This document shows positions 1 through 12,411 of a stretch of DNA of 12,859 nucleotides, in pieces. The notes under the pieces were generated by a model. It ran no database searches and was not told where the DNA came from. It was given only the letters and a program-made list of their open reading frames with translations. This stretch comes from Rhodoluna sp. (GTDB lineage Bacteria > Actinomycetota > Actinomycetes > Actinomycetales > Microbacteriaceae). Numbering within the stretch: the stretch's first letter is position 1; each line of letters starts with the position of its first letter. A program made the translations under genes and the position numbers. The stretch is taken from the NCBI GenBank assembly GCA_023260375.1, contig JALQVK010000123.1, forward strand, positions 1 through 12,859. Direction: 5' to 3'.

Positions 1-1489
1 CTACACCTGTCAAAAGGTCGAGGATTTGACCTTGTTCACGCAAAGACTTTGGAGACTTGAAATTTGCTTTGATTACTAGGTCATCAAGTTTGCCCTGAAG
101 CGTCGAAAACTGCTGGGAGTGCAGTTCCTTTGCAAGTTGAGCAATGTCTTGCAATTGCTCTTCACTTTCAAATCTGGCGCCGAACCACGAACTATCGGCT
201 GGCCCGTACTTGAAAAGTCCGGCAGCCTCAGCCTTCTCAAGCAGTTCTAAAGCAGCGCTCCGAGACCGAAACCGGTTTAGTCCGTCGAGGCCTATCCGCG
301 CAACCGTGGTCGGGGCGTTGGGCATTGAAGCTAGTCTGGCCAGATTTTCGAGCACTTCAAGAAGTGAATGTCCGATCGAATCATTGCGCTTGGCTAAGTT
401 TTCAAGGTACGACTGAAGCTGACTCGACGCAGAATCCTGTTTAACCCCTGCAGCGACTAAGTCCACCGACTGAGCTTTCTCAAAGCGAGAAATAGCTCCA
501 ACGACATCTAGCCAGATACTTGAACTTCTAACCAACAAACCGTTCAAACCAAGATTTGCGAGTCTTTCGGAGAGTTCATTGATGGTTTGACGTCTCGGAG
601 TGACCACCAAAACACGTTTTCCATCGTGTACTAAAGCGGTCAAAACATTGACGACGGTCTGCGTGTAACCCGAACCAGGCAAGGTCTCCACAGCGAAGCT
701 GTCGCCTCTTATGGCTCTGGACACAATTCGTTTTTGAGTCGAATCTGCGTCGGCAACCAATCTCGGCTCTTCGTAAATTTCTTCGTTGACCTCAGGAACT
801 TCGGCTACCTCAGAAAGTTGGCGAAGTAACTGATTTCCTTCAAGACGAATGTCGGCTTCCATCAGAGTTGGCTCGACTGCAAAGTTGCCAATCACCAACG
901 CGCGTTGAAATTGCACATTTGCGTCATCAGCTAGCAAGGAGGCAATGTAATCGATGACGTCGATAGGTAACAAGTCAGTTGCATTGCTCAGTAAAGCCAA
1001 AACCTTGGACGAATTAAGGCTCACGCCGTAGGTGTTAACGAGAGCGGCAACCAAAGCCGGGTTGACAAATGGAGATCCCGCTCTGGTTACTTCGAAATCG
1101 TCCGTTTTGCGAATCAACTGAACCGGCCAGAGCAAAATTGGAAGATTCAGGTCGAAACCATCTTTTTCCAAACTAGCCAAACCGCCAACCAGATAGCTGG
1201 TGTGAATTCCGAAGTTGTCCAGATGATGGACCGCTTTTGCTTTGATTCTTTTAGCTGTGTTTAGCGCCTTTGAAAAGGCCAGAGGCTCTCTCACCAGGTT
1301 GGAAAGGAGCGATGTTCCGCTCGAAGTGAACTGAGCGATTCCGCTTGGGTGGGAGCGTTCCAAGTCGATTTGCCCGAAATCATTGAACGCGAAATTTATG
1401 AGCCCATTGGTTTTGCCAATGTCCCGAATCTCTCGGATCCACGCGTCCCAGTTAATTCTCGAGTTGATTGACTTGTCTTCCACACTCAT
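1..1489 (-). CDS. DUF4011-type superfamily 1 helicase-like ATPase, N-terminal part (cut by window edge)
   Basis: The reading frame stays open for 496 codons from an ATG at 1489 to the left edge, so the C-terminal part is outside the window. Residues about 10-130 resemble the DUF4011 N-terminal region of large actinobacterial helicase-like proteins: a segment around 80-105 (KAKAVHHLDNFGIHTSYLVG) is followed by a hydrophobic LPILLWPVQL strand. Residues about 248-310 look like the start of a superfamily 1 (Dna2/Upf1-like) ATPase: STQKRIVSRA (Q-motif position), a Walker A-like loop at 270-278, then a motif Ia-like strand VLVVTPRRQ at 293-301. The loop reads LPGSGYTQT, with Tyr275 where the catalytic lysine normally sits. 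Residues 340-480 are helical and probably an insertion within helicase domain 1. Motifs II-VI would lie off the window, so activity cannot be judged. The SD is weak. The start sits 39 bp from the divergent tRNA gene. Family assignment is by recognition; the function is unknown. Confidence 0.75.
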   Translation of the reverse strand, partial: MSVEDKSINSRINWDAWIREIRDIGKTNGLINFAFNDFGQIDLERSHPSGIAQFTSSGTSLLSNLVREPLAFSKALNTAKRIKAKAVHHLDNFGIHTSYLVGGLASLEKDGFDLNLPILLWPVQLIRKTDDFEVTRAGSPFVNPALVAALVNTYGVSLNSSKVLALLSNATDLLPIDVIDYIASLLADDANVQFQRALVIGNFAVEPTLMEADIRLEGNQLLRQLSEVAEVPEVNEEIYEEPRLVADADSTQKRIVSRAIRGDSFAVETLPGSGYTQTVVNVLTALVHDGKRVLVVTPRRQTINELSERLANLGLNGLLVRSSSIWLDVVGAISRFEKAQSVDLVAAGVKQDSASSQLQSYLENLAKRNDSIGHSLLEVLENLARLASMPNAPTTVARIGLDGLNRFRSRSAALELLEKAEAAGLFKYGPADSSWFGARFESEEQLQDIAQLAKELHSQQFSTLQGKLDDLVIKANFKSPKSLREQGQILDLLTGV

Positions 1490-1507
1490 AGGCTAATCGC
1501 CTAAAGG

Positions 1508-1513
1508 TATATT
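1508..1513 (+). promoter_or_regulatory. Candidate -10 box for the tRNA-Arg gene
   Basis: TATATT lies 15 bases upstream of the mature tRNA 5' end, which is compatible with a short 5' leader trimmed by RNase P. No convincing -35 hexamer is visible at the right distance. The AT-rich core reads as a possible -10 on the minus strand too (TATACC), where it could serve the divergent helicase-like gene. Weak evidence. Confidence 0.35.
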
Positions 1514-1528
1514 TGGTTGAAGCCACAA

Positions 1529-1600
1529 GCCTCCGTAGCTCAGTGGATAGAGCAGAGGTTTCCTAAACCTTGTGCGGAAGTTCGATTCTTCTCGGGGGCA
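1529..1600 (+). tRNA. tRNA-Arg (anticodon CCU)
   Basis: The sequence folds as a full cloverleaf. The acceptor stem GCCTCCG pairs with CGGGGGC with one U-G wobble. The D stem is GCTC/GAGC around an AGTGGATA loop. The anticodon stem GAGGT/ACCTT carries the 7-base loop TTCCTAA, giving anticodon CCU at positions 34-36. A 4-base variable loop follows, then the T stem GGAAG/CTTCT around TTCGATT, and discriminator base A at 1600. The 3' CCA is not encoded. This tRNA reads the AGG arginine codon. Its 3' end lies only two bases from the stop codon of the convergent HNH gene, so there is no room for a dedicated terminator. Confidence 0.96.
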
Positions 1601-1602
1601 CA

Positions 1603-2106
1603 CTATGCAGCGGTCGGTAGCCCCAGAAACACATCCCACTCGGGTTCTACGCGCTCAACCCCTCTGACCAACCACTGCATTCCTGTCGGCATCTTTGGGG
1701 TCACCTTAAGTTCCCAGCCGAGCTCATGTAACGTTTGGTCGCTCTTTTGGTTATTGCAACGGAAGCAGCAGGCCACCAGGTTGTCCCAGGTGTCTGTTCC
1801 CCCCTTAGATTTGGGCTGAACATGATCAATCGTGTTTGCCGCTTTGGAGCAATAGGCGCAGCGCCAACCGTCACGACGCAACACCCCTCGTCGGGTCACG
1901 GGAATTTTGCGAGTGTTAGGCACTCGGACATAACGACTCAAGAGGATTACTGAAGGCAGTTTCAAAGTCTCCGTTGCGCTGTGAACTTCCAACTCTCCGG
2001 CACCTGCTAGTACTGTTGCCTTCTGATTCAAGACCAAAATTAACGCTCGCTTGAACGAAACCACGCCAAGTGGTTCATAACCCGCGTTCAAAACTAGTGT
2101 TCTCAT
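1603..2106 (-). CDS. HNH endonuclease family protein (167 aa)
   Basis: The product belongs to the small stand-alone HNH endonucleases common in Actinobacteria, which open with MRTLVLNAGYEPLG. The nuclease core is at residues 81-123: a zinc-knuckle CAYC at 83-86, the catalytic-site DH pair at 94-95, the WDNL asparagine at 109, and a second zinc pair at 114/117 within CFRCNNQK. The frame is open further upstream, but ATG at 2106 is chosen because TTAGGAGG precedes it by three bases and the family N-terminus begins there. The upstream extension would place the start inside a terminator hairpin. The gene is preceded by a leader ORF and terminator that together look like an attenuator. It is convergent with the tRNA gene at a 2-bp gap. 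The in vivo substrate is unknown; metal-dependent DNA nicking or cutting is inferred from the fold. Confidence 0.9.
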   Translation of the reverse strand: MRTLVLNAGYEPLGVVSFKRALILVLNQKATVLAGAGELEVHSATETLKLPSVILLSRYVRVPNTRKIPVTRRGVLRRDGWRCAYCSKAANTIDHVQPKSKGGTDTWDNLVACCFRCNNQKSDQTLHELGWELKVTPKMPTGMQWLVRGVERVEPEWDVFLGLPTAA

Positions 2107-2118
2107 GATCCTCCTAAC

Positions 2119-2149
2119 AAAAAACGCGCCACCAAAAAGGTGACGCGTT
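2119..2149 (-). terminator. Intrinsic terminator / attenuator hairpin ahead of the HNH gene
   Basis: On the minus strand, arm AACGCGTCACC (2149-2139) pairs over 11 bp with GGTGGCGCGTT (2133-2123) around a TTTTT loop, and a run of six T (2124-2119) overlaps the stem end. One pair is a U-G wobble on the minus strand but a C-A mismatch on the plus strand, so the structure is specific to minus-strand RNA. The stem begins one base after the first base of the leader ORF stop codon. The HNH SD starts two bases after the T-run. A terminator placed between a leader ORF and a structural gene is the expected layout of an attenuator. Confidence 0.8.
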
Positions 2150-2198
2150 AGCAGACGCAAATAGCTTGAAGTTGTATCCGATGGTGCTTACGGTCCAC
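2148..2198 (-). CDS. Candidate 16-residue regulatory leader peptide ending Cys-Val-Cys
   Basis: The ORF starts with GTG at 2198 after TTAGGAG with a 5-base spacer and encodes (f)M-DRKHHRIQLQAICVC before a TAA at 2150-2148. Two of the last three sense codons are TGC (Cys). The stop overlaps the first bases of the terminator stem ahead of the HNH gene, so a ribosome held at the Cys codons would cover the 5' arm and favour read-through. From general knowledge, actinobacteria use short leader ORFs with C-terminal Cys codons to control sulfur-related genes, some with an Arg/His-rich motif followed by Ile-x-Leu; this peptide has a similar flavour. The downstream gene here is a nuclease rather than a sulfur gene. 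Translation is inferred from the SD, the repeated SD module and the geometry. It could instead be a chance ORF. Confidence 0.6.
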   Translation of the reverse strand: MDRKHHRIQLQAICVC

Positions 2199-2220
2199 GA
2201 GTACTCCTAACAAGAAACTT

Positions 2221-2237
2221 GGTCTTAGGTTAAGACC
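2221..2237. repeat. Perfect 7-bp inverted repeat upstream of the leader ORF
   Basis: GGTCTTA-GGT-TAAGACC is a perfect 7-bp inverted repeat with a 3-base centre, lying 11 bases upstream of the leader-ORF SD. It could be an operator for a dimeric repressor or a hairpin at the 5' end of the leader RNA. It contains TTAGGTTA, which resembles half of a DtxR-type iron box, but the other half does not match, so that reading is not supported. Confidence 0.5.
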
Positions 2238-2245
2238 ACAGGACT

Positions 2246-2267
2246 AAAAAACCGCGATTGCCACGGT
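2246..2267 (-). terminator. Intrinsic terminator of the NlpC/P60 gene
   Basis: On the minus strand, ACCGTG pairs with CGCGGT (6 bp, one U-G wobble) around a 5-base loop, and the run of six T ends at 2246. It lies 17 bases after the stop codon of the NlpC/P60 gene. As the wobble is an A-C mismatch on the plus strand, it is directional. It separates this gene from the leader/HNH unit, which implies that the latter has its own promoter between about 2200 and 2245 or depends on read-through. Confidence 0.7.
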
Positions 2268-2284
2268 AACGATTTAGTGAACTT

Positions 2285-3175
2285 TTACTTGTAAATGCGA
2301 ACAAAGTGAACCGCATAAGGTTCGTCGTAAATCTCAGCAAGTTTCACTGTGTCACCCGGCTTGGGAGCATGGATCATGTTCCAGCCTCCGGCGTAAATAC
2401 CGATGTGACCACCGTCATTCCAAACCACTAGGTCACCTGGCTGAGCATCCTTGGCATGAATAAGCTTTCCGCGAGCGCTTTGGGCATGAACTGAATGAGC
2501 TAGTGAAATACCAAACTGAGCCCATACGTAGCGAGTAAAGCCAGAACAGTCGAATCCAGCTGGCGTTGAACCACCGAAAACATAGGGAACTCCGATGTAC
2601 TTTGAGGCAACTTTAATGATTTGAGCGCCTGTCACCGAATCGTAAGGTGGGTTCTTCAAATAGTCCTCAGCGGTGTAACCACTCCAAGCGCGGTATCGAC
2701 TGAGAGTAGCGTTACGGAGAGCTGCCGCAGTAGTTGTTTTCGCACCCCCGCGATCAGTTACGGTCTGATTTCCAAGGTTATCGACAACTAAACCTTGAGT
2801 GTCTTGGTTGAGGTTTGACGCACCATTTAATGCCGTGATGGCCGGACTAAAAGCGTAGGCAGGCAGGGTGAAAGCCGCGAAAAGACCGGCTGCCACTGAA
2901 AAAGTTAGAGTGCTGGTCAAGTTCCGGCGGAAAGTCTTACGGCTAACGCCCGAAACAATACGAGAAGTGAAGGAAACCGACTTGCCTTCACGGACCGCAT
3001 TCTCAACTTCAAGCATTCTGGAAACCCGCTCGGCGCTCTTTGCGGCTCGAGCTTCGGCGCGTGAGCGCTTTGCTGCTTGCTTATCGAGGACGGATTTACG
3101 ACTGGTCAGTTCAAACTGCTCTAAGACGTTTACCTTAACGTCTGCACGTCGTCGCCCGCTTGGCTTTTTGGCCAA
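2285..3175 (-). CDS. NlpC/P60 (C40) peptidoglycan endopeptidase, secreted or membrane-anchored
   Basis: The C-terminal 120 residues form a C40 papain-like cell-wall peptidase domain. It has nucleophile Cys210 in the DCSGF motif, His257 in GHIGIY, and His269 in MIHAP as the third active-site residue. The N-terminus is unusual: about 85 very basic, Ala/Lys/Arg-rich residues, probably helical, come before a hydrophobic segment at 87-108 that ends in an AYA signal-peptidase-like site. The protein is therefore exported or anchored, with a long cytoplasmic N-region. Residues 110-180 are a linker. Family members cut the stem peptide between D-Glu and the diamino acid during wall remodelling. The start is TTG at 3175, fixed by CGGAGG six to seven bases upstream and by the MAKK-type opening. 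The gene follows the IdeR-like gene by 68 bp with no terminator between, so co-transcription is possible. Confidence 0.92.
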   Translation of the reverse strand: MAKKPSGRRRADVKVNVLEQFELTSRKSVLDKQAAKRSRAEARAAKSAERVSRMLEVENAVREGKSVSFTSRIVSGVSRKTFRRNLTSTLTFSVAAGLFAAFTLPAYAFSPAITALNGASNLNQDTQGLVVDNLGNQTVTDRGGAKTTTAAALRNATLSRYRAWSGYTAEDYLKNPPYDSVTGAQIIKVASKYIGVPYVFGGSTPAGFDCSGFTRYVWAQFGISLAHSVHAQSARGKLIHAKDAQPGDLVVWNDGGHIGIYAGGWNMIHAPKPGDTVKLAEIYDEPYAVHFVRIYK

Positions 3176-3184
3176 AGCTAACCT

Positions 3185-3196
3185 CCGTGTTCACGG
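3185..3196. repeat. Short inverted repeat overlapping the NlpC/P60 SD region
   Basis: CCGTG-TT-CACGG has perfect 5-bp arms and a 2-base centre, and its left arm abuts the CGGAGG SD of the NlpC/P60 gene. The centre is too small for a good RNA hairpin, so if functional it is more likely a protein-binding site. The evidence is limited to symmetry. Confidence 0.25.
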
Positions 3197-3243
3197 TCGT
3201 TGGAAGACTAACTTTACCTCAAAACAGGGGGTTAAGCCATTTG

Positions 3244-3936
3244 CTAGGCGTCGACGTAGAAGTGCAACGCTATGTCGTGGTCTACCGCAAGGCCTTCTGC
3301 CGAACCGGTGGCGCTTATAAAAAGTCGACCATCGGCGTGTTCCACGTCTAACTTTGCACCCGGGACAATCCCCAAAAGCTTTAGCTGATTCAAAAACTCC
3401 GGATCAATTTGGATCGGTTCGCCGATTCTGCGAAGTGTAAGTTCTCGAGCTCTTCCGTCTTGGTCTAGGACCTTGAGCAAACTGGCACATCCGTCGGTGA
3501 AACCCGGGTTTAGTTCCAACCCGAGCTCATCAAGACCTGGAATCGGGTTGCCATAAGGTGAACGGTCAGGAGCATCGATTAAGCCAATGATCTTGCGTTC
3601 AACCTGCTCGCTGATCACGTGTTCCCAGCGACAGGCTTCTTCGTGAACAAACTCCCAGTCAAGCCCAATCACGTCGGCTAATAACCTTTCGGCAAGGCGG
3701 TGTTTACGCATGACCCGCGTGGCCTGCGACAAGCCCTCGGCGGTGAGTTCGAGCTGGCGGTCATCTCTGACCAGCATTAGGCCGTCGCGTTCCATGCGCG
3801 CCACAGTTTGAGAAACAGTTGGCCCGGAGTGGCCTAGTCGCTCAGATATTCTGGCGCGCATTGGGACCTGACCTTCTTCGATCAGTTCTAGGACGGTACG
3901 CAAATACATTTCAGTGGTGTCAATTAGATCGTGCAC
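3244..3936 (-). CDS. DtxR/IdeR-family iron-dependent transcriptional regulator
   Basis: The full-length 230-aa protein matches the IdeR/DtxR layout. An N-terminal winged helix-turn-helix has recognition segment SGPTVSQTVARMERDGL at 37-53. A dimerisation/metal domain follows at about 65-140, with a C-terminal SH3-like domain at about 150-230. All metal ligands of this family are present at the same numbering: Met10, Cys102, Glu105 and His106 for the primary site; His79, Glu83 and His98 for the ancillary site. The Met10/Cys102 combination fits an Fe(II) sensor better than an MntR-type Mn sensor. Such proteins repress siderophore, uptake and storage genes when iron is replete. The start is GTG at 3936, preceded by GGAAGGAG with a 7-base spacer. 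The gene is divergent from serC across 42 bp. No clear DtxR box is visible in that gap, so autoregulation is not supported here. Confidence 0.93.
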   Translation of the reverse strand: MHDLIDTTEMYLRTVLELIEEGQVPMRARISERLGHSGPTVSQTVARMERDGLMLVRDDRQLELTAEGLSQATRVMRKHRLAERLLADVIGLDWEFVHEEACRWEHVISEQVERKIIGLIDAPDRSPYGNPIPGLDELGLELNPGFTDGCASLLKVLDQDGRARELTLRRIGEPIQIDPEFLNQLKLLGIVPGAKLDVEHADGRLFISATGSAEGLAVDHDIALHFYVDA

Positions 3937-3966
3937 GAGCGAACTCCTTCCTGCGCTTTCGTCAAG

Positions 3967-3972
3967 GATAAT
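3967..3972 (+). promoter_or_regulatory. Candidate -10 box giving a leaderless serC transcript
   Basis: GATAAT matches TATAAT at five of six positions and lies six bases before the serC ATG, so the predicted transcription start falls on or next to the A of the start codon. An AAGGA stretch at 3964-3968 lies ten bases before the ATG, so a leadered transcript from further upstream cannot be excluded. No convincing -35 box is visible. Confidence 0.45.
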
Positions 3973-3978
3973 TGACTC

Positions 3979-5094
3979 ATGAGCGAAATTATCATTCCTA
4001 ACAACCTGCTACCCGTCGATGGCCGCTTTGGCTGTGGACCTTCGAAAGTTCGACCTGCTCAACTTGCTGCGTTTGCCAGCGAAGGCGCCGAACTTATGGG
4101 AACCTCGCACCGTCAAGCTCCGGTGAAGAATTTGGTGAAGCGGGTTCAGGATGGGCTCATGAGCCTGTTTCACAACCCAGAAGGCTACGAAATCGTTATT
4201 GGCAACGGTGGCTCGACCGCTTTTTGGGATGTTGCTGCGTTTTCGCTGGCCGAACAAAAGGCTCAGAACTTGGTGCATGGCGAGTTCGGCAACAAGTTTG
4301 CCAGCGCCCTCAGTGCCCCTTGGCTAACCAAGCCAACAGTCCTGAATGGTGAGCCTGGCTCACGCCTCGAACTTGAGGCTGAGGCCGGTGTTGACATCTA
4401 CGCCTACCCACAGAATGAAACCTCTACCGGCGTGGTCACTCCCGTGAAGCGCGTAGCTGGGGTCGACTCTGGTGCCCTATTCCTTACCGACGCCACCTCG
4501 GCCGCGGGCGGAATCGACTTCGACCCACTGGAGACCGACGTCTACTACTTCGCACCACAAAAGAACTTCGCCTCAGACGGCGGTCTCTGGTTTGCGCTGA
4601 TGTCACCAGCCGCGATTGAGCGCGCCGAACGAATTGATGCTTCCGACCGTTACATTCCAGAGTTCTTGAGTCTCAAAACCGCGATCGACAATTCGCGTCT
4701 GAACCAGACCCTCAACACCCCAGCGATTTCGACTTTGTTCCTTTTGGCCGAGCAGATTGACTGGATGAATGAAAACGGCGGACTCGCCTGGGCCGACGCA
4801 CGAACCAAGGAAGCCAGCTCGCTTATTTACAACTGGGCTGAAAACAATAAGTTTGCTACCCCATTTGTTTCCAACCCAGCCCACCGCTCTCAAGTAGTTT
4901 CAACAATTGACTTCGAGGGAATTGATGCAGCAGCAATTTCAAAGGTCCTGCGTGCCAACGGAATCGTAGATGTTGAACCATACCGAAAACTCGGACGCAA
5001 CCAACTTCGAATTGCAACTTTCACCGCCACTGACGCAGCGGATGTAGCCCAGCTACTCAAGGCCATCGATTATGTAATCGAGCACATCGCCTAG
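3979..5094 (+). CDS. serC: Phosphoserine aminotransferase SerC
   Basis: This PLP enzyme converts 3-phosphohydroxypyruvate and glutamate to phosphoserine in serine biosynthesis; the same family acts in de novo pyridoxal phosphate synthesis in some bacteria. The 371-aa length fits the actinobacterial SerC group. Visible marks are the N-terminal RFGCGPSKVRP loop (16-26), the GTSHRQAPVK segment (41-50), GNGGSTAFWD (75-84), the LTDATSAAGG strand bearing the cofactor aspartate (169-178), and PQKNFASDGG with Schiff-base Lys195. The C-terminal HRSQVVSTIDF and GRNQLRIATF strands complete the fold. The start at 3979 is supported by the family N-terminus and a -10 box six bases upstream. The stop codon overlaps the GTG of the next gene by one base (TAGTG), which implies translational coupling. 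Confidence 0.95.
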   Translation: MSEIIIPNNLLPVDGRFGCGPSKVRPAQLAAFASEGAELMGTSHRQAPVKNLVKRVQDGLMSLFHNPEGYEIVIGNGGSTAFWDVAAFSLAEQKAQNLVHGEFGNKFASALSAPWLTKPTVLNGEPGSRLELEAEAGVDIYAYPQNETSTGVVTPVKRVAGVDSGALFLTDATSAAGGIDFDPLETDVYYFAPQKNFASDGGLWFALMSPAAIERAERIDASDRYIPEFLSLKTAIDNSRLNQTLNTPAISTLFLLAEQIDWMNENGGLAWADARTKEASSLIYNWAENNKFATPFVSNPAHRSQVVSTIDFEGIDAAAISKVLRANGIVDVEPYRKLGRNQLRIATFTATDAADVAQLLKAIDYVIEHIA

Positions 5095-5321
5095 TGAAGT
5101 TTTTCGTCAAGGAAGAAGACCGTCAGCCAGATCCGGCTCCGGTTAAAAGTAATGCCAGAGCAGTTGCTCTGGCAGGACTTGTAATTTGGGCTCTCGCCTT
5201 AGTTATTTTTCTTGTTTTTCCGGCGACTCTTCCAGCTGAAAAATCGTGGTGGCTTGCGACCTGCGTCGTCGGCTTGGTCTTGGGTATCGTCTTCTACGTC
5301 AAATTCGGTAGAGGCAAGTAA
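5094..5321 (+). CDS. DUF2530-family small two-TM membrane protein
   Basis: The 75-aa protein opens with a charged stretch (KEEDRQPDPAPVK, 6-18) typical of the DUF2530 family, followed by two hydrophobic segments at about 23-43 and 51-70 and a basic end (KFGRGK). The predicted topology is two membrane passes. The function is unknown; the family is often found next to serC in actinobacteria (from memory). The GTG start shares its first base with the serC stop, and no SD is visible, so translation probably depends on re-initiation by ribosomes leaving serC. Its last 123 bases lie antisense to the 3' end of the convergent DUF3027 gene. Codons of the two genes are in the same register, so U-centred hydrophobic codons here face A-centred polar codons there. 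Confidence 0.82.
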   Translation: MKFFVKEEDRQPDPAPVKSNARAVALAGLVIWALALVIFLVFPATLPAEKSWWLATCVVGLVLGIVFYVKFGRGK

Positions 5322-5765
5322 TACCTCTTCGGCGTGTTCGATGGTTTCCTCTTCAGGTGCATCAACCAAATCGATCGGCTGCCCTTCAGTTTCTTCCTCT
5401 GATTCGTCCTCTTCCAAAGCTTCCTCAGCCTCAGCAGCTTCGGCAGCAGCTTGTGCTTCTAACTCGGCCTGAAGCGCTTTGTAGTCGGCAAGTCGTTCCG
5501 ACCATGGAATCCACTTTGGTGCAATTAATGCTCCATCTCCAGGCATCATTACTACCTCAGAGATTGTTGGCTCTTGGCCTTCCGGCTGATAGATAGTTAC
5601 TGACCAGAACCAGCCAACGTACCCACGAAGCGTGCTTTCAAAGATGTAGCTGCGCAGACCCGGTTCTTCTTCATCGGTACGAATGTAGCTACCGACGGCA
5701 CGACGACCACCGGTTAGGCGCGCAGCCTCACCAGCGTATTCGCTTAGATCCTTGAGGTTACTCAT
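5199..5765 (-). CDS. DUF3027-domain protein with acidic C-terminal tail
   Basis: The conserved part is residues 1-95. It includes GYVGWFWSVTIYQ (48-60), TISEVVMMPGDGALIAP (67-83) and KWIPWSERL (84-92), the signature of DUF3027, an actinobacterial family of unknown function. Residues 98-165 are a long Glu/Ala-rich acidic region, probably helical or disordered, and the protein ends with a basic KSRRKNKKNN tail. At 188 aa it is shorter at the N-terminus than many family members as I remember them. The ATG at 5765 overlaps the stop of the upstream cold-shock gene by 8 bases (GATGAGTAA) without a clear SD, which implies translational coupling. The last 40 codons are antisense to the DUF2530 gene. 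A link to the cold-shock protein is suggested only by operon position. Confidence 0.85.
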   Translation of the reverse strand: MSNLKDLSEYAGEAARLTGGRRAVGSYIRTDEEEPGLRSYIFESTLRGYVGWFWSVTIYQPEGQEPTISEVVMMPGDGALIAPKWIPWSERLADYKALQAELEAQAAAEAAEAEEALEEDESEEETEGQPIDLVDAPEEETIEHAEEVLLASTEFDVEDDTQDQADDAGRKPPRFFSWKSRRKNKKNN

Positions 5766-6141
5766 CTAGGTCATCGGCAACGCGTCGCAGGATTGCTGCA
5801 ATACGACGTGCCTTCTCCGGCTCTGGTCGGCGGCCATTCTTGAACGATGGGCCAAGTCCGTCCAGTAGACGAATCAAATCTTGAACAACCGCAGCCAAAT
5901 CGTCTGCGTTGCGACGGTTCGCCTGCACGAGAGAAACCGGTGCTTCCAGAATGCGAACACTCATTGCCTGGGCTCCGCGCTTTGAATCAACGACGCTGTA
6001 TTCAATACGGGTGCCGTTCTTGACCGCGGTCATTCCATCGGGTAGCGCCGACGCGTGCAGGTAAACCTCGGCACCTTCATCGGACTGGATGAATCCAAAA
6101 CCCTTGACGTCATCAAAAAACTTCACTTTGCCGGTTGGCAT
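5758..6141 (-). CDS. Cold-shock domain protein with C-terminal extension
   Basis: Residues 1-67 form a cold-shock (OB-fold) domain that binds single-stranded RNA/DNA: GKVKFFDDVKGFGFIQ carries RNP1 (KGFGFI, 13-18) and VYLHAS (26-31) is RNP2, with Phe replaced by Tyr at its second position. Classic Csp proteins stop near 67 residues; this one has 60 more, a helical charged segment (about 75-125) rich in Arg/Asp/Glu. Actinobacteria commonly carry such a 125-135 aa form next to DUF3027 and XPB genes, from memory of mycobacterial gene order. Likely roles are nucleic-acid chaperoning and relief of RNA structure. The SD GGAGG with a 7-base spacer precedes ATG 6141. It is followed by the coupled DUF3027 gene. 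Confidence 0.92.
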   Translation of the reverse strand: MPTGKVKFFDDVKGFGFIQSDEGAEVYLHASALPDGMTAVKNGTRIEYSVVDSKRGAQAMSVRILEAPVSLVQANRRNADDLAAVVQDLIRLLDGLGPSFKNGRRPEPEKARRIAAILRRVADDLDE

Positions 6142-6147
6142 TCGTGC

Positions 6148-6174
6148 ACCTCCATGTGTTGAACCTCCATTTTA
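6148..6174 (-). promoter_or_regulatory. Cold-shock gene promoter and duplicated SD-like element
   Basis: On the minus strand, TAAAAT (6174-6169) is a good -10 candidate and would start the transcript near 6162, giving a leader of about 20 bases. The octamer ATGGAGGT occurs twice (6170-6163 and 6155-6148). The second contains the SD used for the start at 6141; the first overlaps the -10 box. The 63-bp gap to the divergent membrane-protein gene holds both promoters. Confidence 0.5.
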
Positions 6175-6198
6175 CCGACCCTTTGAGACAGGTATCCT
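6171..6198 (+). promoter_or_regulatory. Candidate promoter for the membrane protein-XPB operon
   Basis: TTTACC (6171-6176) and TATCCT (6193-6198) are spaced 16 bp apart, and the -10 ends six bases before the ATG at 6205. The predicted mRNA is therefore leaderless or nearly so, although AAGG immediately before the ATG could act as a minimal SD. The -35 overlaps the -10 candidate of the divergent cold-shock gene, so the two promoters may compete. Confidence 0.4.
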
Positions 6199-6204
6199 AA
6201 AAGG

Positions 6205-6432
6205 ATGGCAAACTCAGGCAATGGTCGTGCTCGACTAGAAAACATCCTCGCTGCAATGGCGGTCGGTTTATTGGCAATTTCGGTCCTTTCCATCATCGGA
6301 TTGATGCTGCTCAGCAAACTTATTGACACGTCCTATTTCATTTTGATTCCTTACATCGGTCTACCGACTTCTGCACTGTTGATCATCGTTCTTTTGGTTC
6401 TACAGATTCGCAAGAAAAGCGGTTCCAACTAA
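6205..6432 (+). CDS. Small two-TM membrane protein of unknown function
   Basis: The 75-aa product has a polar N-terminus (MANSGNGRARLEN), a hydrophobic segment at about 13-37, a short loop with an aspartate, a second hydrophobic segment at about 46-68 and a basic RKKSGSN end. I recognise no functional motif; similar short proteins occur in Microbacteriaceae next to XPB-type genes, but I cannot name the family. It starts six bases after a -10-like TATCCT. The next gene begins three bases after its stop without an SD of its own, so it may serve partly to deliver ribosomes to the XPB-associated gene. Confidence 0.75.
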   Translation: MANSGNGRARLENILAAMAVGLLAISVLSIIGLMLLSKLIDTSYFILIPYIGLPTSALLIIVLLVLQIRKKSGSN

Positions 6433-6435
6433 TCC

Positions 6436-8181
6436 ATGAGTGAACTCCGGCAGCTTGTCGAAGCACTTAGAGGGTTGTCTGACGACGACCTTCGAGCGCT
6501 CGTTGCAGCTCGCCTGATTCCAATCGGAAATATTGAGGATTTCTATTCGCTCGCCGAAATTCTGAACTCCCCGAAAAGTTACTCATCGGTAATTGGTTCA
6601 CTCAGCAGATCTCAGCTGGCTTCGCTTTCAGCGCTTTCCGTGGGTGAGAAGATCGGCTCGGCAGAGTTCGAAAGCCTGCTCCGATTGCAACTGGTTTACC
6701 AAGACGCCGGGCGGCAAAAAGCCTACGAGCAACTTCTAGAACAGCTGAAGAGCAACAAAGCATTCACGAGAAGTTTGAGAATTATTGGTGAACAGCCGAT
6801 TCCGCCAAGCCAGACCGAGATTGACCGAAACTGTGGGCTAGTCGCTTTTGAGACTATGCAGTCTCTAACCGAATTGATTTTTGATTTGGAAAAACACCTC
6901 ATTCGAGAAGTCGGTAAAAGTGGCGTTGGTCTCCCAGATGTAAAACGGCTTGCGAATGCACTTGGTAAGCCAAACGATTTTGCAAAAAACATTTTTTCTT
7001 TAGCCAGCCGCCTTGAATTGATGGCCTTGAACAACGGTCGCCACCTCCTAACTGCCGAAGCTCTGGAATGGTTGGAACTTGACCAGCTTGGGAGAATGCA
7101 AATTCTTTACCGCAGCTTCGCAGAACTTTTAGGCGCCGAACTTCTTGGTGAACTAAAGGCATTCAAATCTGGTCAGTCACTAAAACTTTGGCTCGAGGAA
7201 CAATTTCCTCTTGCGGAAAACACGGTTGGATCACGAATTGGGATGATCTTGCGAAGCGCCGAAAGTTTCGGTCTAACCTTCGAGGGTCACTCGGCTTCTT
7301 GGTTTGCTGAAGGAATTACCAGCGGCAAGACCTTAGGCAAATTACTTTCGCCTCACTTACCAGCCGTGCAGGATCGAATCATTCTCCAAGCCGATCTGAG
7401 CATCATTGCGCCAGGACCGTTACCTACTAAAACCGAATCGCTATTGAGACGATTTGCTAACACCGAAAATATCGGGCTGGCCTCGAGTTACCGCCTGAGC
7501 GCCTTGAGTGTTTGCCACGGTCTGGAAACGGGTCTGAGCACAGAAGAAATCTCAAAAATTCTTTCCGACGCTTTCGGCGCCAAGCTACCCCAGCCAGTTG
7601 AATATCTTCTAGCAGAAGTGAATAATCGCTTCGGTCGCCTGGTCATAGTTGAGGCCAAATTGGGCGAAAGCCGATCTTTTATCCAAAGTTCCGACAACGT
7701 GTTGCTAACTGAAATCGGAAATGATCCGCGACTTCGCCCCTTCTCTCTGATTCGTCCTAGCAACGAAAAGTTGAGTTGTCGGTTTGAACCCTCAGTGGTG
7801 TATTTCGGGTTACGCGAATGTGGCTACTTGGCAATTCGCCATGACGAAAATGGCAAAGTGATTTCACCAATTGAAGCTTCAGAGACCGCTAAGGCTCAAA
7901 ATGCGTTCAATAAATGGGACGAGCGTATTGCGAAATTCCGTGAGGCTGATTTGAGTTCGTCCAAAGCCGGGAACGATGAGGTAATGACTCGTCAGGTACA
8001 AATGGCTATTCGAAATAAGGCAAAACTTTCCATCACGGTAAATCGTCCAGATGGCACCCAGATTGTCATTGAACTGGAACCCAGTGGAATCGCAAACGGT
8101 CGCCTGCGTGGGCTAGACCGAAAGGCCCAGGTCGAACGAACCTTGCCGTTGACCACCATTGCGGCCATATCTCTGGCTTAG
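6436..8181 (+). CDS. XPB/Ssl2-like helicase-associated protein
   Basis: This 581-aa protein corresponds to the conserved actinobacterial partner encoded beside XPB (the mycobacterial Rv0862c type, by recognition). It has no Walker motifs and so is not itself a helicase. Residues 1-300 are mainly helical with winged-helix-like stretches (GVGLPDVKRLANALGKPNDF, 163-182). Residues about 310-405 form the XPB/Ssl2 helicase-associated domain (RIILQADLSIIAPGPLP, ending in NRFGRLVIVEA). The same type of domain recurs at the N-terminus of the next gene's product. The C-terminus (about 520-580; RLRGLDRKAQVERTLPL) resembles a WYL-like beta domain, often a nucleic-acid or ligand sensor. The gene starts three bases after the preceding stop and ends nine bases before XPB, so the two are surely co-expressed. 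Its role in repair is inferred from context. Confidence 0.87.
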   Translation: MSELRQLVEALRGLSDDDLRALVAARLIPIGNIEDFYSLAEILNSPKSYSSVIGSLSRSQLASLSALSVGEKIGSAEFESLLRLQLVYQDAGRQKAYEQLLEQLKSNKAFTRSLRIIGEQPIPPSQTEIDRNCGLVAFETMQSLTELIFDLEKHLIREVGKSGVGLPDVKRLANALGKPNDFAKNIFSLASRLELMALNNGRHLLTAEALEWLELDQLGRMQILYRSFAELLGAELLGELKAFKSGQSLKLWLEEQFPLAENTVGSRIGMILRSAESFGLTFEGHSASWFAEGITSGKTLGKLLSPHLPAVQDRIILQADLSIIAPGPLPTKTESLLRRFANTENIGLASSYRLSALSVCHGLETGLSTEEISKILSDAFGAKLPQPVEYLLAEVNNRFGRLVIVEAKLGESRSFIQSSDNVLLTEIGNDPRLRPFSLIRPSNEKLSCRFEPSVVYFGLRECGYLAIRHDENGKVISPIEASETAKAQNAFNKWDERIAKFREADLSSSKAGNDEVMTRQVQMAIRNKAKLSITVNRPDGTQIVIELEPSGIANGRLRGLDRKAQVERTLPLTTIAAISLA

Positions 8182-8190
8182 GCTAGAAGG

Positions 8191-9825
8191 ATGACTTCAG
8201 GACCACTAATCGTTCAGAGCGACAAAACTGCTCTGCTGGAAGTGGACCACCCTTCGGCGGCCGACGCCCGTCATGACCTTTCGATTTTTGCCGAACTTGA
8301 GCGCGCACCAGAGCACATCCACACCTATCGAATAACGCGTTTGGGTTTGTGGAACGCTCGAGCTGCCGGCCATGATTCCGATTTCGTCCTAGACGTTTTG
8401 GATAAATACGCGAAGTTTGCGGTGCCCGCTGGTGTGCGAAACGAAATTGTAGACACCATGTCTCGCTACGGGCGACTCTCGATCATTCGCGATGAAGAAC
8501 AGCGCCTAATGCTGCACTCGAAAGATCGTGCGGTGCTCGTGGAGGCGTCGAAACAACCGAAAATCGCAGCCCTTTTAGAGGAGCCGATTGACAGTGAAAA
8601 CTTCGCGATTGCGCCTTGGGCTCGTGGGCAAGTAAAGCAGGAGCTGCTAAAACTTGGCTGGCCAGCCGAGGATTTTGCAGGCTATGCACCTGGTACACCT
8701 CACGATATTGCTCTCAATGAAATCGGTTGGAACATTCGTGATTACCAAACCAATGCGGTTACCAAGTTTTGGGATGGCGGTTCGGGTGTAGTAGTTCTCC
8801 CATGTGGTGCTGGCAAAACCATTGTTGGTGCCGGTGCCATGAGCGTTGCCAAAACCAACACTCTAATTCTGGTGACCAACACCGTCTCGGCTCGCCAGTG
8901 GAAGAGTGAACTTCTGAAACGTACCACTCTTACCGAAGACGAAATCGGCGAGTATTCGGGCTCAGTCAAGGAAATAAAGCCAATCACCATTGCCACCTAC
9001 CAAATCTTGACCACCAAGAGTAAAGGCGAGTTTGCCCACCTGGCACTACTCAATGCCAACGACTGGGGTCTCATAATCTACGACGAAGTGCATTTGCTGC
9101 CGGCACCAATTTTCAAGATGACTGCCGATCTTCAGGCACGTCGTCGTCTTGGGCTCACTGCAACCCTGGTTCGAGAAGATGGAAAAGAGGGTGAGGTTTT
9201 CTCTCTCATCGGCCCGAAGCGCTTCGACGCCCCTTGGAAGGACATTGAAGCGCAAGGCTACATCGCACCTGCTGCCTGTTTTGAGGTGCGAGTAGACCTA
9301 CCAGGCGACGTTCGCATGGACTACGCGATTGCCAACCAGGAAGACCGCTATCGCCTAGCTGCCTGCGCCTCGGCAAAAATCGATGTGATTAGCCAATTGT
9401 TGAAGAAACATGTCGGCGAGCCCACTTTGGTAATTGGACAGTACCTAGATCAACTACACGAAGTAGCAGCCCAGCTTGATGTGCCTTTGATCACCGGACA
9501 GACACCGGTCGAGGAACGTGAGCGCCTCTTTCAGGGTTTCCGCGATGGCGAATTGAAGACTTTGGTGGTTTCTAAGGTTGCCAACTTCTCAATTGACCTT
9601 CCAGAGGCTTCTGTGGCTATTCAGATTTCCGGTTCATTTGGCTCTCGTCAAGAGGAAGCCCAACGCCTTGGGCGTTTACTTAGACCGAAGGCTGACGGAC
9701 GTGCGGCTAGTTTCTACACCATCATTTCGCGCGACACCGTTGACCAAGACTTTGCTCAGAACCGCCAGCGCTTTCTGGCTGAGCAGGGGTATAGCTACGA
9801 AATCCTCGACGCCCACGCACTTTAA
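8191..9825 (+). CDS. DNA repair helicase XPB (superfamily 2, 3'-5' helicase)
   Basis: This is a full-length 544-aa bacterial XPB. An N-terminal damage-recognition/associated region covers residues 1-120. The two RecA-like domains follow, with RDYQ (Q motif, 183-186), Walker A CGAGKT (205-210), DEVH box (298-301), GLTATL (motif III, 321-326) running directly into the XPB-specific RED motif (328-330), and motif VI QRLGRLLRPK (491-500). XPB unwinds DNA 3' to 5' in ATP-dependent repair; in bacteria its pathway is less defined than in eukaryotic TFIIH. The start at 8191 has AGAAGG just upstream. The gene is third in a tight unit with a small membrane protein and the XPB-associated protein. No terminator is visible before the two-component genes 65 bp downstream. 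Confidence 0.95.
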   Translation: MTSGPLIVQSDKTALLEVDHPSAADARHDLSIFAELERAPEHIHTYRITRLGLWNARAAGHDSDFVLDVLDKYAKFAVPAGVRNEIVDTMSRYGRLSIIRDEEQRLMLHSKDRAVLVEASKQPKIAALLEEPIDSENFAIAPWARGQVKQELLKLGWPAEDFAGYAPGTPHDIALNEIGWNIRDYQTNAVTKFWDGGSGVVVLPCGAGKTIVGAGAMSVAKTNTLILVTNTVSARQWKSELLKRTTLTEDEIGEYSGSVKEIKPITIATYQILTTKSKGEFAHLALLNANDWGLIIYDEVHLLPAPIFKMTADLQARRRLGLTATLVREDGKEGEVFSLIGPKRFDAPWKDIEAQGYIAPAACFEVRVDLPGDVRMDYAIANQEDRYRLAACASAKIDVISQLLKKHVGEPTLVIGQYLDQLHEVAAQLDVPLITGQTPVEERERLFQGFRDGELKTLVVSKVANFSIDLPEASVAIQISGSFGSRQEEAQRLGRLLRPKADGRAASFYTIISRDTVDQDFAQNRQRFLAEQGYSYEILDAHAL

Positions 9826-9852
9826 GACACGCAGAAAACACCCAAGCAACAT

Positions 9853-9889
9853 TCAGGGTTCTCACAGGTTCGCGGAGGAAACTCTCAGG
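9853..9889 (+). promoter_or_regulatory. Helically phased AGG repeats upstream of the response-regulator gene
   Basis: AGG occurs at 9855, 9866, 9876 and 9887, i.e. spaced 11, 10 and 11 bases. Three copies sit in similar contexts: TTCAGG, TCACAGG and CTCAGG. The third copy (GGAGG) is probably the SD. OmpR/PhoB-family regulators bind tandem direct repeats spaced about one helical turn, so this could be an autoregulatory site for the adjacent regulator. No confident -10/-35 pair is seen. Inference from spacing only. Confidence 0.35.
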
Positions 9890-9890
9890 T

Positions 9891-10586
9891 ATGGAACCAA
9901 TCAAGATTCTCGTAGTAGATGATGAACCAAACATTAGAGACCTCCTCGCAAGCGGATTGCGCTTCGCTGGCTTCTCCGTCCTTGCCGTTGGAAACGGTAA
10001 TGATGCCGTCGTGGCAGCTGAAAAAGGTAACCCCGACCTGATTCTTCTGGACGTCATGCTTCCGGACATGAGTGGTTTCTCGGTAACCAAGAAACTTCGT
10101 TCCATGGACATCATGGCACCGGTGCTTTTCCTAACCGCCCGCGACGAAGTAGAAGACAAAATCACCGGCCTCACTGTTGGCGGCGACGACTACATGACCA
10201 AACCATTCAGCCTGGACGAAATCATCGCCAGAATCAACGCAATCCTTCGCCGTACCAAGGTAACTTCCGTTGAAAAGAGCATCATCGAAGTAGGAGAAGT
10301 CCGCATCGACGAGGATGCCCACGAAGTCTTCGTAAACGAGACCCCGGTTGAACTATCCCCCACCGAATATCAGCTCCTTCGTTTCCTCATGGAAAACGCG
10401 AACCGGGTGCTTTCGAAGTCCCAGATTCTAGATCACGTTTGGGAGTATGACTTCAACGGAGAAATGGGTATCGTCGAATCGTATGTGTCCTACCTGCGCA
10501 AGAAGCTTGACCCGCTAACCAGCGAGCCAGTTTTGGTCACCAAGCGTGGACACGGTTACATGTTCAAGTCGACGAAAAAGAAATAG
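9891..10586 (+). CDS. OmpR/PhoB-family response regulator
   Basis: The 231-aa protein has an N-terminal receiver domain (1-120) with the acidic pocket Asp10-Asp11, phosphoacceptor Asp54 in LLDVMLP, Thr82 in FLTARD, Tyr101 and Lys104 in DYMTKPF. The C-terminal winged-helix DNA-binding domain (about 132-228) shows the classic VELSPTEYQLLRFLM, SKSQILDHVW, IVESYVSYLRKKLD and KRGHGYMF segments. It binds DNA as a phosphorylated dimer and controls target genes for its partner kinase. Resemblance is to the MprA/TcrX group of actinobacterial regulators, but the specific orthologue is not certain. A GGAGG lies 12 bases before the ATG, rather far; the repeat region just upstream may also be its operator. 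The kinase gene follows after three bases. Confidence 0.95.
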   Translation: MEPIKILVVDDEPNIRDLLASGLRFAGFSVLAVGNGNDAVVAAEKGNPDLILLDVMLPDMSGFSVTKKLRSMDIMAPVLFLTARDEVEDKITGLTVGGDDYMTKPFSLDEIIARINAILRRTKVTSVEKSIIEVGEVRIDEDAHEVFVNETPVELSPTEYQLLRFLMENANRVLSKSQILDHVWEYDFNGEMGIVESYVSYLRKKLDPLTSEPVLVTKRGHGYMFKSTKKK

Positions 10587-10589
10587 TTA

Positions 10590-12059
10590 ATGAATAGGAA
10601 GTTAGCCAGCGGTTGGGCCAAGGTTTCCCTTCGCACTAAGTTGACCGCACTTTCGGTTGCGATCATTGGCCTGCTTCTTGCTATTTCAAGTGCCGGTACC
10701 ATGTCGTTGCTGGCAACTTACATGCAGCGAAACACTGACACCGTGCTCCTTGCCAGCGCTGATGCACTCAGCGATGAGTTACCAGACCAAATCTCCACTC
10801 GAGTATTCACCGGGCAGTTAGTCCTGCCAGATCTTCCTAGCGACTACTACATCGCTTATCTCGACTCAAATGGCACACTGCTGAGAGGGATTTTCGCGGG
10901 ATCAAACAAAAACCGCGTATTCCCAAATCTAAGCAATTTCACATTGCCAGAGGTCACCAGAATTGCTGGTGTTCCATTCGAAATCGACAAGCTTGGAAGA
11001 CCAACCCCTGGTGTTGACGAAACCCACGGCTGGCGAATTGTGGCAGTTCCTACATCAAGCTACGCGGGTTCATTAGTTATCGCTCTTCCAGTTTCCGGAA
11101 ACCATGCACTAATCGCTCAGTATCGAACCATCGGAACCGGTTTTGGTCTCTTGCTTTTGATCCTGAGCGCTCTGGCGATTTGGTTCACCATAACTTCCGC
11201 TTTGCGGCCACTTAAGGAAGTCGAGCGCACAGCCGCTGCTGTTTCGGCTGGAAAAATCGACAGCCGCTTGGTCGAACAATCGCCCAAAACTGAGGTCGGA
11301 CGTATCAACATTGCACTGAACTCAATGCTTGAAAGTATTCAGAGCGCGCTTGACGCTCGTGGAAAGGCACTTGATCAAATGCGTCGATTCGTCTCCGACG
11401 CTTCTCACGAACTCCGCACACCTCTGGCCTCGGTTCGTGGTTATGCCGAACTCTACCGAATGGGCGCTTTGAAAGATAAGGCAAACCTAGACGATGCAAT
11501 GGGAAGAATTGAAGCCGAGGCCATTCGAATGGGTGGACTCGTCGACAGCTTGCTCACCCTTGCCAGACTCGATGAGGCAACTCAGATGAACTTAGTTGAA
11601 ACCGACCTAGTTCCAATTGCCTTGGACGCGGCCAAGGATGCTTCGGTAGCGGAGTACAAGCGCAAGATTGTGGTCACAAACTTCCAAGGCGAAACCTTGG
11701 ATGAAAACCACCACCTAAACGCTTGGGTCGATGCCATGGCCTTCCGGCAGGTGCTAACCAACCTTTTAGCGAATGCCAGTAGATTCAGTCCGAAAGATGG
11801 AACCGTTGAACTAGTGCTCGGTCTTCAGGGTCACAAGATTGCAGTTGAGGTTCGCGATCACGGCGAAGGTATTCCTGATCAGCTTCGTGAAAAAGTCTTC
11901 GAGCGCTTCTTCCGCGCCGATAACTCACGCAACCGCGAAACCGGTGGTTCGGGTCTAGGGCTTTCGATTGTGAAGACAATTCTCGATCGCCACAAGGCTT
12001 CAATCATTGCCTTGGAAACCCCTGGTGGCGGAACCACCATGCGCATCACGCTTTCCTAG
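10590..12059 (+). CDS. Sensor histidine kinase (HAMP-HisKA-HATPase_c)
   Basis: The 489-aa membrane kinase partners the response regulator encoded immediately upstream. TM1 lies at about 18-40, an extracytoplasmic sensor region at about 45-178 and TM2 at about 180-202. A HAMP linker follows (about 203-255, with LRPLKEVERTAAAVSAG). The HisKA dimerisation domain has phospho-acceptor His273 in SDASHELRTPLAS. The ATPase domain has Asn395 in the N box (NLLANASRFS), DHGEGIP (423-429, G1), FERFFR (437-442, F box) and GGSGLGLSIVK (452-462, G2). All catalytic motifs are intact. The stimulus is unknown; the sensor domain shows no recognisable ligand motif. It starts three bases after the regulator stop with no good SD, so translation is probably coupled. 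Confidence 0.95.
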   Translation: MNRKLASGWAKVSLRTKLTALSVAIIGLLLAISSAGTMSLLATYMQRNTDTVLLASADALSDELPDQISTRVFTGQLVLPDLPSDYYIAYLDSNGTLLRGIFAGSNKNRVFPNLSNFTLPEVTRIAGVPFEIDKLGRPTPGVDETHGWRIVAVPTSSYAGSLVIALPVSGNHALIAQYRTIGTGFGLLLLILSALAIWFTITSALRPLKEVERTAAAVSAGKIDSRLVEQSPKTEVGRINIALNSMLESIQSALDARGKALDQMRRFVSDASHELRTPLASVRGYAELYRMGALKDKANLDDAMGRIEAEAIRMGGLVDSLLTLARLDEATQMNLVETDLVPIALDAAKDASVAEYKRKIVVTNFQGETLDENHHLNAWVDAMAFRQVLTNLLANASRFSPKDGTVELVLGLQGHKIAVEVRDHGEGIPDQLREKVFERFFRADNSRNRETGGSGLGLSIVKTILDRHKASIIALETPGGGTTMRITLS

Positions 12060-12068
12060 TTATCCACA
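12060..12068 (+). promoter_or_regulatory. Perfect DnaA-box sequence
   Basis: TTATCCACA, the canonical 9-mer DnaA box, starts on the base after the kinase stop codon, in the 58-bp gap before the WXG100 gene. Only one copy is visible, so this is not an origin. It could be a chance match (about one in ten for a window this size on both strands) or a DnaA regulatory site. Confidence 0.4.
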
Positions 12069-12117
12069 TATTCTGTAACTCTCTAAAAACAAATACAGGC
12101 TTTAGCAACATTGAGCC

Positions 12118-12405
12118 ATGACAATTTTCAGAGTAGACAGCGAGCAGGTTCTCGCTGCAAACAGCAACATTCAGGTAACCATCGGCAAACTTCAGAGCGA
12201 AGTTGAATCTCTCTATTCCCAACTCCAGAGCCTCGAAGGATCTTGGCAAGGAGCCGCTGCAACAAGTTTTCAAGAACTGGTGAAACGCTGGCGCTTAACC
12301 GCCAATACCGTTGAACAGCAGCTCGGTGAAGTGGGTCGCGCGCTAGCACTGGCCGCTCAGCAATACAACGACATCGAGCAGGCCAACCTTCGCCTATTCA
12401 TCTAG
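12118..12405 (+). CDS. WXG100-family (ESAT-6-like) type VII secretion target
   Basis: The 95-aa length and predicted helix-turn-helix hairpin match the WXG100 family. The turn has the WxG motif Trp43-Gln-Gly45 (LEGSWQGAAATSF), and the C-terminal helix carries the secretion-signal pattern YxxxE at Tyr83-Glu87. The protein lacks a Sec signal peptide. Family members are exported by ESX/type VII systems as dimers, or act as chaperones/partners for larger toxins. No EccC ATPase, second WXG gene or LXG toxin is visible here, so its secretion route is unknown. No strong SD precedes ATG 12118. It is preceded by a two-component system and followed by a terminator shared with groEL. It could be controlled by that regulator, but this is only positional inference. 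Confidence 0.9.
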   Translation: MTIFRVDSEQVLAANSNIQVTIGKLQSEVESLYSQLQSLEGSWQGAAATSFQELVKRWRLTANTVEQQLGEVGRALALAAQQYNDIEQANLRLFI

Positions 12406-12411
12406 GCAAAG

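Follow-up and report, generated by a model that had tools for sequence, protein, structure and literature searches.

In actinobacteria, short upstream open reading frames (uORFs) are known to control genes in several ways; the polycysteine short-ORF attenuators of mycobacteria were reportedly described by Canestrari in 2020, and IshB is said to have been defined by Altae-Tran in 2021. Ribosome-mediated leader-peptide attenuators include the actinobacterial ilvB leaders (PMC1262725, PMC13236596), and the omega RNA of IsrB carries 3' hairpins together with a Shine-Dalgarno (SD) sequence (PMC9581776). Here we analyzed the leader of an HNH nuclease gene on the minus strand of contig JALQVK010000123.1 of Rhodoluna sp. 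(Microbacteriaceae; GenBank assembly GCA_023260375.1, positions 1 to 12,859); this whole stretch of 12,859 nucleotides is referred to as the window. The gene is preceded by a short ORF and an intrinsic terminator, an arrangement that an initial annotation had taken for a cysteine-responsive attenuator. Our best reading, to which we give a probability of roughly 55%, is that the leader acts as a ribosome-position attenuator for a PLMP+HNH gene and not as a cysteine sensor, and that in most of the family it is coupled to autoregulation through two hairpins, H1 and H3.

The whiB7/wblC uORF attenuators share with this leader an actinobacterial uORF and plausibly the sensing of translation itself, and differ from it in target and in leader. 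The ilvB-type attenuators (PMC1262725, PMC13236596) share a short ORF, an intrinsic terminator and a downstream gene; unlike them, the HNH leader often has its stop codon at the base of the terminator, has no conserved antiterminator and no run of codons for one amino acid, and serves a nuclease. The window's copy resembles the mycobacterial polycysteine attenuators and the cys leader peptides (the latter in PMC1262725) in having Cys codons near the stop, but unlike in those systems the codons are not conserved and the target is no sulfur gene. In common with the IsrB omega RNA (PMC9581776), there is a PLMP-domain protein and a hairpin directly before its own ribosome-binding site (RBS); unlike there, H3 stands alone as a 7-bp hairpin whose loop is AGCCG or AGCCA, RuvC is missing and HEARO is not matched, and we claim a likeness here, not homology. 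IshB (PMC12477157) also joins PLMP to HNH without RuvC in about 170-180 aa, whereas the gene studied here is a widespread chromosomal gene. Among the papers listed in a search of literature titles and abstract openings, covering few subscription journals, none dealt with the leader of this kind of HNH gene.

A leader ORF and a terminator recur upstream of the PLMP+HNH gene

The 167-aa product of the gene looks like a PLMP+HNH (IshB-like) nuclease. Pfam returned HNH families only, the HNH domain matched IscB and Cas9-type HNH profiles, and residues 1-64 of an AlphaFold model matched the PLMP domains of IscB (9k30_A, 50 residues at 1.8 A; 7xht_A, 50 at 2.2 A), which gives the predicted protein the N-terminal PLMP domain and the IscB/Cas9 kind of HNH without RuvC that mark IshB-like proteins. 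At E <= 0.001 the gene was detected in 270 of 299 family genomes, with a handful of weak matches (E 1e-6 to 1e-3) that may represent other HNH genes; it was also found in 63 of the 67 genomes of the window's genus, in 44/89 genomes of an order sample (E <= 1e-30) and in 91/118 of a class sample (E <= 1e-25).

The initial annotation had listed, on the minus strand and in this order, an SD, a GTG-started ORF of 16 codons ending Cys-Val-Cys-stop, an 11-bp terminator, a U-run, a second SD and the HNH gene, and every one of these elements is present. Just one place in the 12.9-kb window, and none in 100 dinucleotide shuffles, combines an SD-led ORF with an intrinsic terminator at whose base the ORF stops. 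Over 2245-2100, a stretch that opens shortly ahead of the leader and extends to the HNH start, the RNA gives a better fold than 200/200 shuffles (z -3.7). For comparison, 120 upstream regions of the family were used, the window's included, made up of 30 loci and 90 more chosen for spread from the match list; leaders from named organisms include those of Microbacterium oxydans, Cryobacterium arcticum and Frondihabitans sp. Leaf304. The results showed an intrinsic terminator in 109/120 leaders versus 19/120 shuffles. For 106 of these 109, the distance from the terminator end to the HNH gene was 56-134 nt; in the window it is 16 nt. In two leaders (L007, L029) the best call was another hairpin and eight had no call; typed patterns were used to locate the terminator in these ten, which brought the set to 117 leaders, in which the uORF stop lay at -6..+2 relative to the terminator base in 56, at +3..+20 in 26, beyond in 34 and before it in 1. 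Among 125 non-redundant leaders from both leader sets, 77 had their first stop at -6..+2 when read in the ORF frame, versus 3 and 12 for the two remaining frames, a contrast that is partly built in, since the uORF start was picked partly by stop position.

The uORFs of the family are largely of one kind, with the form M...R(S/T)IQTVDARALFFIRHSSQ... in many high-GC genera and ...PAKHEFQHxHIVCPCQ... in much of the window's genus; some neighboring families have His-rich leader forms, as judged by eye. As a separate observation, His-codon-rich leader ORFs stand before the HNH gene in loci L096, L104, L115, L136 and L144 (e.g., MGTMRHHSHHCFHHHCAWNC). A terminator was found within 330 nt of the gene in 29/36 named Microbacteriaceae loci, 5/10 Micrococcaceae loci (two examined, at 191 and 231 nt, look unrelated), 1/20 Streptomycetaceae loci and 1/1 Brevibacteriaceae loci, all counted without a shuffle control; from these counts, therefore, the unit of ORF and terminator appears characteristic of the Microbacteriaceae. 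Both a conserved intrinsic terminator and a conserved short ORF, as expected of a leader-ORF transcription attenuator, were found, and the comparison supports the view that they form an attenuator-like unit belonging to the HNH gene. An Rfam scan gave no family match at the leader, either in the window or in 20 gene-bearing loci; two hits under the threshold, to L10_leader (E 2.4) and STnc390 (E 4.2), were attributed to chance.

Cysteine codons in the nearest relatives

The four nearest leaders, MGRMHHRIQLQVLCVS, MCHQHHRIQPQATHVS, MAFQHHRIQLQADFAR and MAHQHHRIQLQAACAR, belong to HNH genes with 94, 87, 77 and 77% identity, respectively, to that of the window. The 16-codon length, the stop position and the terminator are common to 5/5 leaders of this clade, as is the codon core CAC CAT CGG ATA CAA, and the start codon is GTG in the window and ATG in the other four. 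The conservation of leader ORF and terminator that the initial annotation had proposed to look for in relatives was thus found, both here and as a recurrence across the family. The Cys codons at the leader end, whose lack of conservation it had named as refuting its proposal, are not conserved in the alignment of upstream regions: codons 14 and 16 read C..S, H..S, F..R and C..R in the four relatives, and both Cys codons are kept together in 0/4. Among the 61 leaders called in the genus (a set outside which stand L218, without a terminator, and G525, and in which five calls, L189, L191, L202, L215 and L223, are doubtful), the window's is the only one that ends in Cys and likewise the sole one whose final four codons include two Cys.

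A cysteine-responsive attenuator would work through a ribosome that, short of Cys-tRNA, stops at a UGC codon and masks the 5' arm of the terminator, whereupon the nuclease gene is read. The window's leader invites this idea with two UGC codons just upstream of the stop and a terminator that begins at the stop, Cys-run leader peptides are known ahead of cys genes in actinobacteria (PMC1262725), and many other leaders of the genus have CPCQ or CCQ further from the stop, a point in its favor. The comparison nevertheless contradicts cysteine sensing, which we rejected on the four nearest relatives, where the two Cys codons are never kept together while ORF and terminator are conserved; the Cys end is confined to one of the 61 genus leaders called, and by Pfam and profiles the HNH nuclease gene downstream is no sulfur or cysteine-metabolism gene. 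We consider such a sensor highly improbable, and what stands of the original proposal is the leader ORF/terminator unit, which belongs to the gene and recurs in the family. Residue composition was also considered: His and Cys make up 414/3631 residues of the leader ORFs versus 227 in shuffles, but a His or Cys sensor was not read from this because frame 2 is equally His-rich.

In-frame AUA codons and the search for an antiterminator

In the 125 non-redundant leader ORFs, ATA codons numbered 101 in frame versus 16 and 11 out of frame, and ATA accounted for 101/211 Ile codons versus 17/384 in stretches of the HNH genes (118 stretches of 60 nt and 64 longer ones, 7 loci being counted twice). AUA is present in 85/125 leaders and is invariant in the window's clade. 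Synonymous codon changes were 76/257 in frame versus 50/252 and 45/246 out of frame. Of the two signs put forward by the initial annotation, terminator covariation and codon-biased substitution, the first was seen in that the terminator arms vary between genera yet pair (GGCACTGTC/GACAGTGCC, GGCGCTGTC/GACGGCGCC, AGCACCGTC/GACGGTGCT), while the second gave a weak coding signal, with 139/359 changes at third positions over 36 disjoint leader pairs (p 0.018).

This weak codon-position signal speaks for a plain intergenic terminator or a spurious ORF, with no translational regulation. We think that explanation improbable: it is weakened because the gene upstream possesses its own terminator-like hairpin, the distance between terminator and gene is similar in 106/120 leaders, and neither the position of the uORF stop nor the frame bias of AUA fits it.

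The GCGT/ACGC hairpin through which the Cys-codon region had been proposed to pair with the terminator 5' arm is real, being the best fold of its stretch in the window, and a hairpin like it is the best fold also in 2/4 nearest relatives (L175, L177). It is not special, however, as 5'-arm pairing in the family is rarer than in shuffles: pairing of four or more pairs with the 30 nt upstream was found in 71/130 non-redundant leaders versus 94.4 in mononucleotide shuffles, and with the 45 nt upstream in 90/130 versus 99.2. On these grounds a classical antiterminator was rejected, and no conserved antiterminator, the mutually exclusive partner expected in a leader-ORF attenuator, was found among the 130 leaders.

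AUA is decoded by a tRNA-Ile carrying lysidine. Slow decoding of AUA, or ribosome-targeting drugs as in the whiB7/wblC leaders, might shift the ribosome and with it the terminator, making the leader a sensor of translation stress or rare codons in which the hairpins only shape the leader. The strong in-frame over-use of AUA and its invariance in the window's clade agree with this, as does the published uORF control of whiB7/wblC; the codon is, however, missing from some of the leaders, AUACG may be an RNA motif, the terminator would remain accessible with the ribosome positioned on AUA, and no conserved antiterminator was found. On balance we find this sensor rather doubtful.

Covarying hairpins H1 and H3 in most of the family

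Just upstream of the HNH RBS, most relatives carry the hairpin H3, GCCUGCA-AGCCG-UGCAGGC, inside an outer UCGA/UCGA helix beside the SD. On 58 sequences, 89.8% of the H3 cells were paired (77.3% in shuffles) and two-sided changes were found in 79 cells versus 28 shuffled and 7-21 slid; in the loop CC, the first C was present in 140 and the second in 131 of 143 non-redundant sequences. The hairpin H1, near the uORF start, reads AUCCA-AACCG-UGGAU or AUCCG-CACCA-UGGAU, and is GUGC-CNNCCAA-GCAC-like in the window's genus. RNAalifold returned no structure on the family alignment of H1, and H1 was counted after that result at columns that we named, so that the counts lean towards this structure: in 82 leaders outside the genus, 427/492 cells were paired (shuffles: mean 72%, maximum 75%), two-sided changes were 62 versus 11-34 slid, and the loop CC was kept in 76 and 81 of the 82. 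By this comparison, both predicted hairpins covary. A hairpin detector run on the uORF region found H1 in 128/171 leaders versus 16.4 in shuffles; H3 was present in 139/171 and both together in 114/171, and the detector misses H1 in some H3-bearing leaders. The loop letters of H1 and H3 do not track each other: in 80 of the 114 double-hairpin leaders the letter is A for H1 but G for H3.

R1, a covariance model for H3, was run on 14 whole genomes with at most 150 candidates scored per genome. The best match lay at the HNH leader in 13 (E <= 3.4e-4), nine of these leaders being part of the R1 alignment and four (G035, G041, G078, G222) outside it, and the window's genome, which is 73% complete, had no match. 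There were seven other matches, six at E 0.4 or worse and one, a second match in G087, at 0.006; the latter was taken as chance, its 3-kb locus having no HNH-type motif. The comparison shows predicted H3 to be nearly exclusive to the HNH gene in the 13 genomes.

Beyond the family, R1 gave eight matches on 53 sources (the window and 52/61 outside loci), the best at E 0.66 and none at the H3 site. A loop-plus-stem detector, its pattern drawn up after reading the sequences concerned, found H3-like hairpins in 13/37 leaders of other orders versus 0.65 expected (several are close kin), in 5/24 leaders of the order's other families versus 1.2 (one of the five is a terminator) and in 54/79 named loci. 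The hairpin before the gene is CGGCGCG-AGCCA-CGCGCCG in 19/20 Streptomycetaceae loci, all 19 counted by the detector, ACGCG-AGCCA-CGCGU in some uncultured actinobacteria (L159, L327, L346) and GAGGGC-AGCCG-GCCCUC in 3/8 Arthrobacter loci. Common descent of these hairpins with H3 is likely, a grade we do not raise because R1 misses them.

A leader RNA with such hairpins could also be a structured partner RNA of the nuclease in an omega-RNA-like ribonucleoprotein, where the terminator makes the 3' end and control of the gene is a by-product. The PLMP+HNH protein is IscB-like, the RNAs of IscB and IsrB are encoded just upstream of the gene, and the terminator would release a short RNA containing H1. 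That RNA would nonetheless end before H3, which lies beyond the terminator; the window's lineage keeps the gene without either hairpin; and HEARO (RF02033) is unmatched in the window and in 20 loci with gene and leader, its model matching in 4/119 genomes of the phylum and 0/14 control genomes. H3 has no likeness to HEARO by eye. A partner RNA therefore seems to us an unlikely account of the leader.

A reduced leader in the window's lineage

On a quick gene tree, the H3 segment was lost at least three times in the genus: in the window's clade, in L189/L191/L215/L223 and in L205/L206/L210/L213. H1 was undetected in 12 of the 13 leaders of these clades, the exception being L176 with a short hairpin, while the terminator was retained in 13/13. 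Where the call is sound, their uORFs are short (16 codons in five, 19 in five); L189 and L191 were called in the wrong frame, their likely ORF having 20 codons, and L223 was not properly called. Within the genus, H1 and H3 co-occur (33/4/9/15, p 3.7e-5, kinship not corrected for); outside it there is no association (p 0.69). Because the H3 segment and H1 are gone while ORF and terminator remain, the window's leader is, on this sequence comparison, a reduced form of the family element. Its parts are given in Table 1.

Table 1. Predicted elements of the HNH leader and flanking features in the window.
Feature	Position	Strand	Remarks
Terminator-like hairpin of the upstream NlpC/P60 gene, between that gene and the leader	2251..2267	(-)	7 pairs, 4 G-C; pattern match only
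TAACCT, candidate -10-like element of the leader's own promoter	2227..2232	(-)	T, A, C, T of TAnnCT invariant in 5/5 window-clade leaders
Shine-Dalgarno TTAGGAG of the leader ORF	2204..2210	(-)	Clade forms TTAGGAG, TAAGGAG or TTAGGGG
Leader ORF, GTG start, 16 codons + stop, VDRKHHRIQLQAICVC = (GTG)DRKHHRIQLQAICVC	2148..2198	(-)	
AUA (Ile) codon within the conserved HHRIQ stretch of the leader ORF	2175..2177	(-)	Alignment of the clade and in-frame AUA over-use in family leaders
UGC-GUC-UGC (Cys-Val-Cys)	2151..2159	(-)	TGC codons 2159-2157 and 2153-2151; found in this form in the window genome alone
Intrinsic terminator hairpin, 11 bp (7 G-C), loop of 5	2123..2149	(-)	5' arm starts within the stop codon of the leader
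U-run of the terminator	2119..2124	(-)	
Shine-Dalgarno AGGAGG of the HNH gene	2110..2115	(-)	Directly 3' of the terminator; H3 of other lineages missing
PLMP+HNH nuclease gene, IshB-like, 167 aa, ATG at 2106	1603..2106	(-)	Pfam HNH; IscB/Cas9-type HNH profiles; AlphaFold model and structure match

A sigma-70 consensus scan found no promoter. A palindrome, TGGTCTTAACCTAAGACCA (2220-2238, minus strand), spans the -10-like element and is absent from the four nearest relatives aligned. Beside the HNH gene lies a tRNA-Arg(CCT) gene (1529-1601, plus strand); such a gene was near the HNH gene in 16/19 family loci scanned (3.3-3.5 kb each; L001-L030) and in 0/4 loci scanned from outside the family. 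Elsewhere in the window, 2-1489 (minus strand) encodes a protein that runs off the window end and has a weak likeness, far under cut-offs, to the anti-phage ProA and Hhe models, and a strong intrinsic terminator at 12415-12442 (plus strand) follows a WXG100 gene and faces a convergent gene at 12457-12858.

Discussion

Comparison shows a recurring ORF and terminator, an in-frame AUA bias, covariation of H1 and H3 and a link between H3 and the gene, all at the level of sequence. For the ribosome-position attenuator that we favor, we infer a transcription start, translation of the leader, a direction of control and a binding protein, as follows. RNA polymerase would start upstream of the leader ORF. 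A ribosome positioned on a stop codon shields roughly a dozen nucleotides on the 3' side, and one reaching the leader stop would cover the 5' arm of the terminator, letting the polymerase read into the nuclease gene; if the leader ORF is untranslated, or the ribosome is held upstream, the terminator would form. The simplest logic is that leader translation keeps the terminator open, because the uORF reaches the terminator and a ribosome at its stop would cover the 5' arm. The in-frame AUA would be the likeliest slow spot for the ribosome. H1 and H3, which share a CC-containing loop, are probably bound by one protein, the simplest candidate being the nuclease acting through its PLMP domain; its binding would give autoregulation, of transcription via H1 and of translation via H3. 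The window's lineage would have lost H3 and H1 and retained a bare ORF-terminator switch.

More specifically, and only tentatively, the IshB-like nuclease might recognize CC pentaloop hairpins (AGCCG/AGCCA/AACCG/CACCA) in its own leader via PLMP, with H1 gating translation of the leader ORF, hence transcription, and H3 gating the nuclease's own translation. If true, this would be a double autoregulatory lock, transcriptional and translational, and recognition of its own leader would form a cis-regulatory parallel, in free-standing form, to the partnership between IscB/IsrB and omega RNA. If the PLMP+HNH protein binds the hairpins, the RNA-binding role of PLMP would extend past the transposon-borne OMEGA systems, and the relation of PLMP+HNH proteins to RNA-guided nucleases would become testable. 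Together, the analysis replaces a cysteine guess drawn from a single genome with a family-wide leader, matched by no Rfam family, on a widespread gene. Of greater weight than the single leader is the covarying element found ahead of this widespread PLMP+HNH gene; autoregulation through it is possible, and the window's copy is a pared-down version of it.
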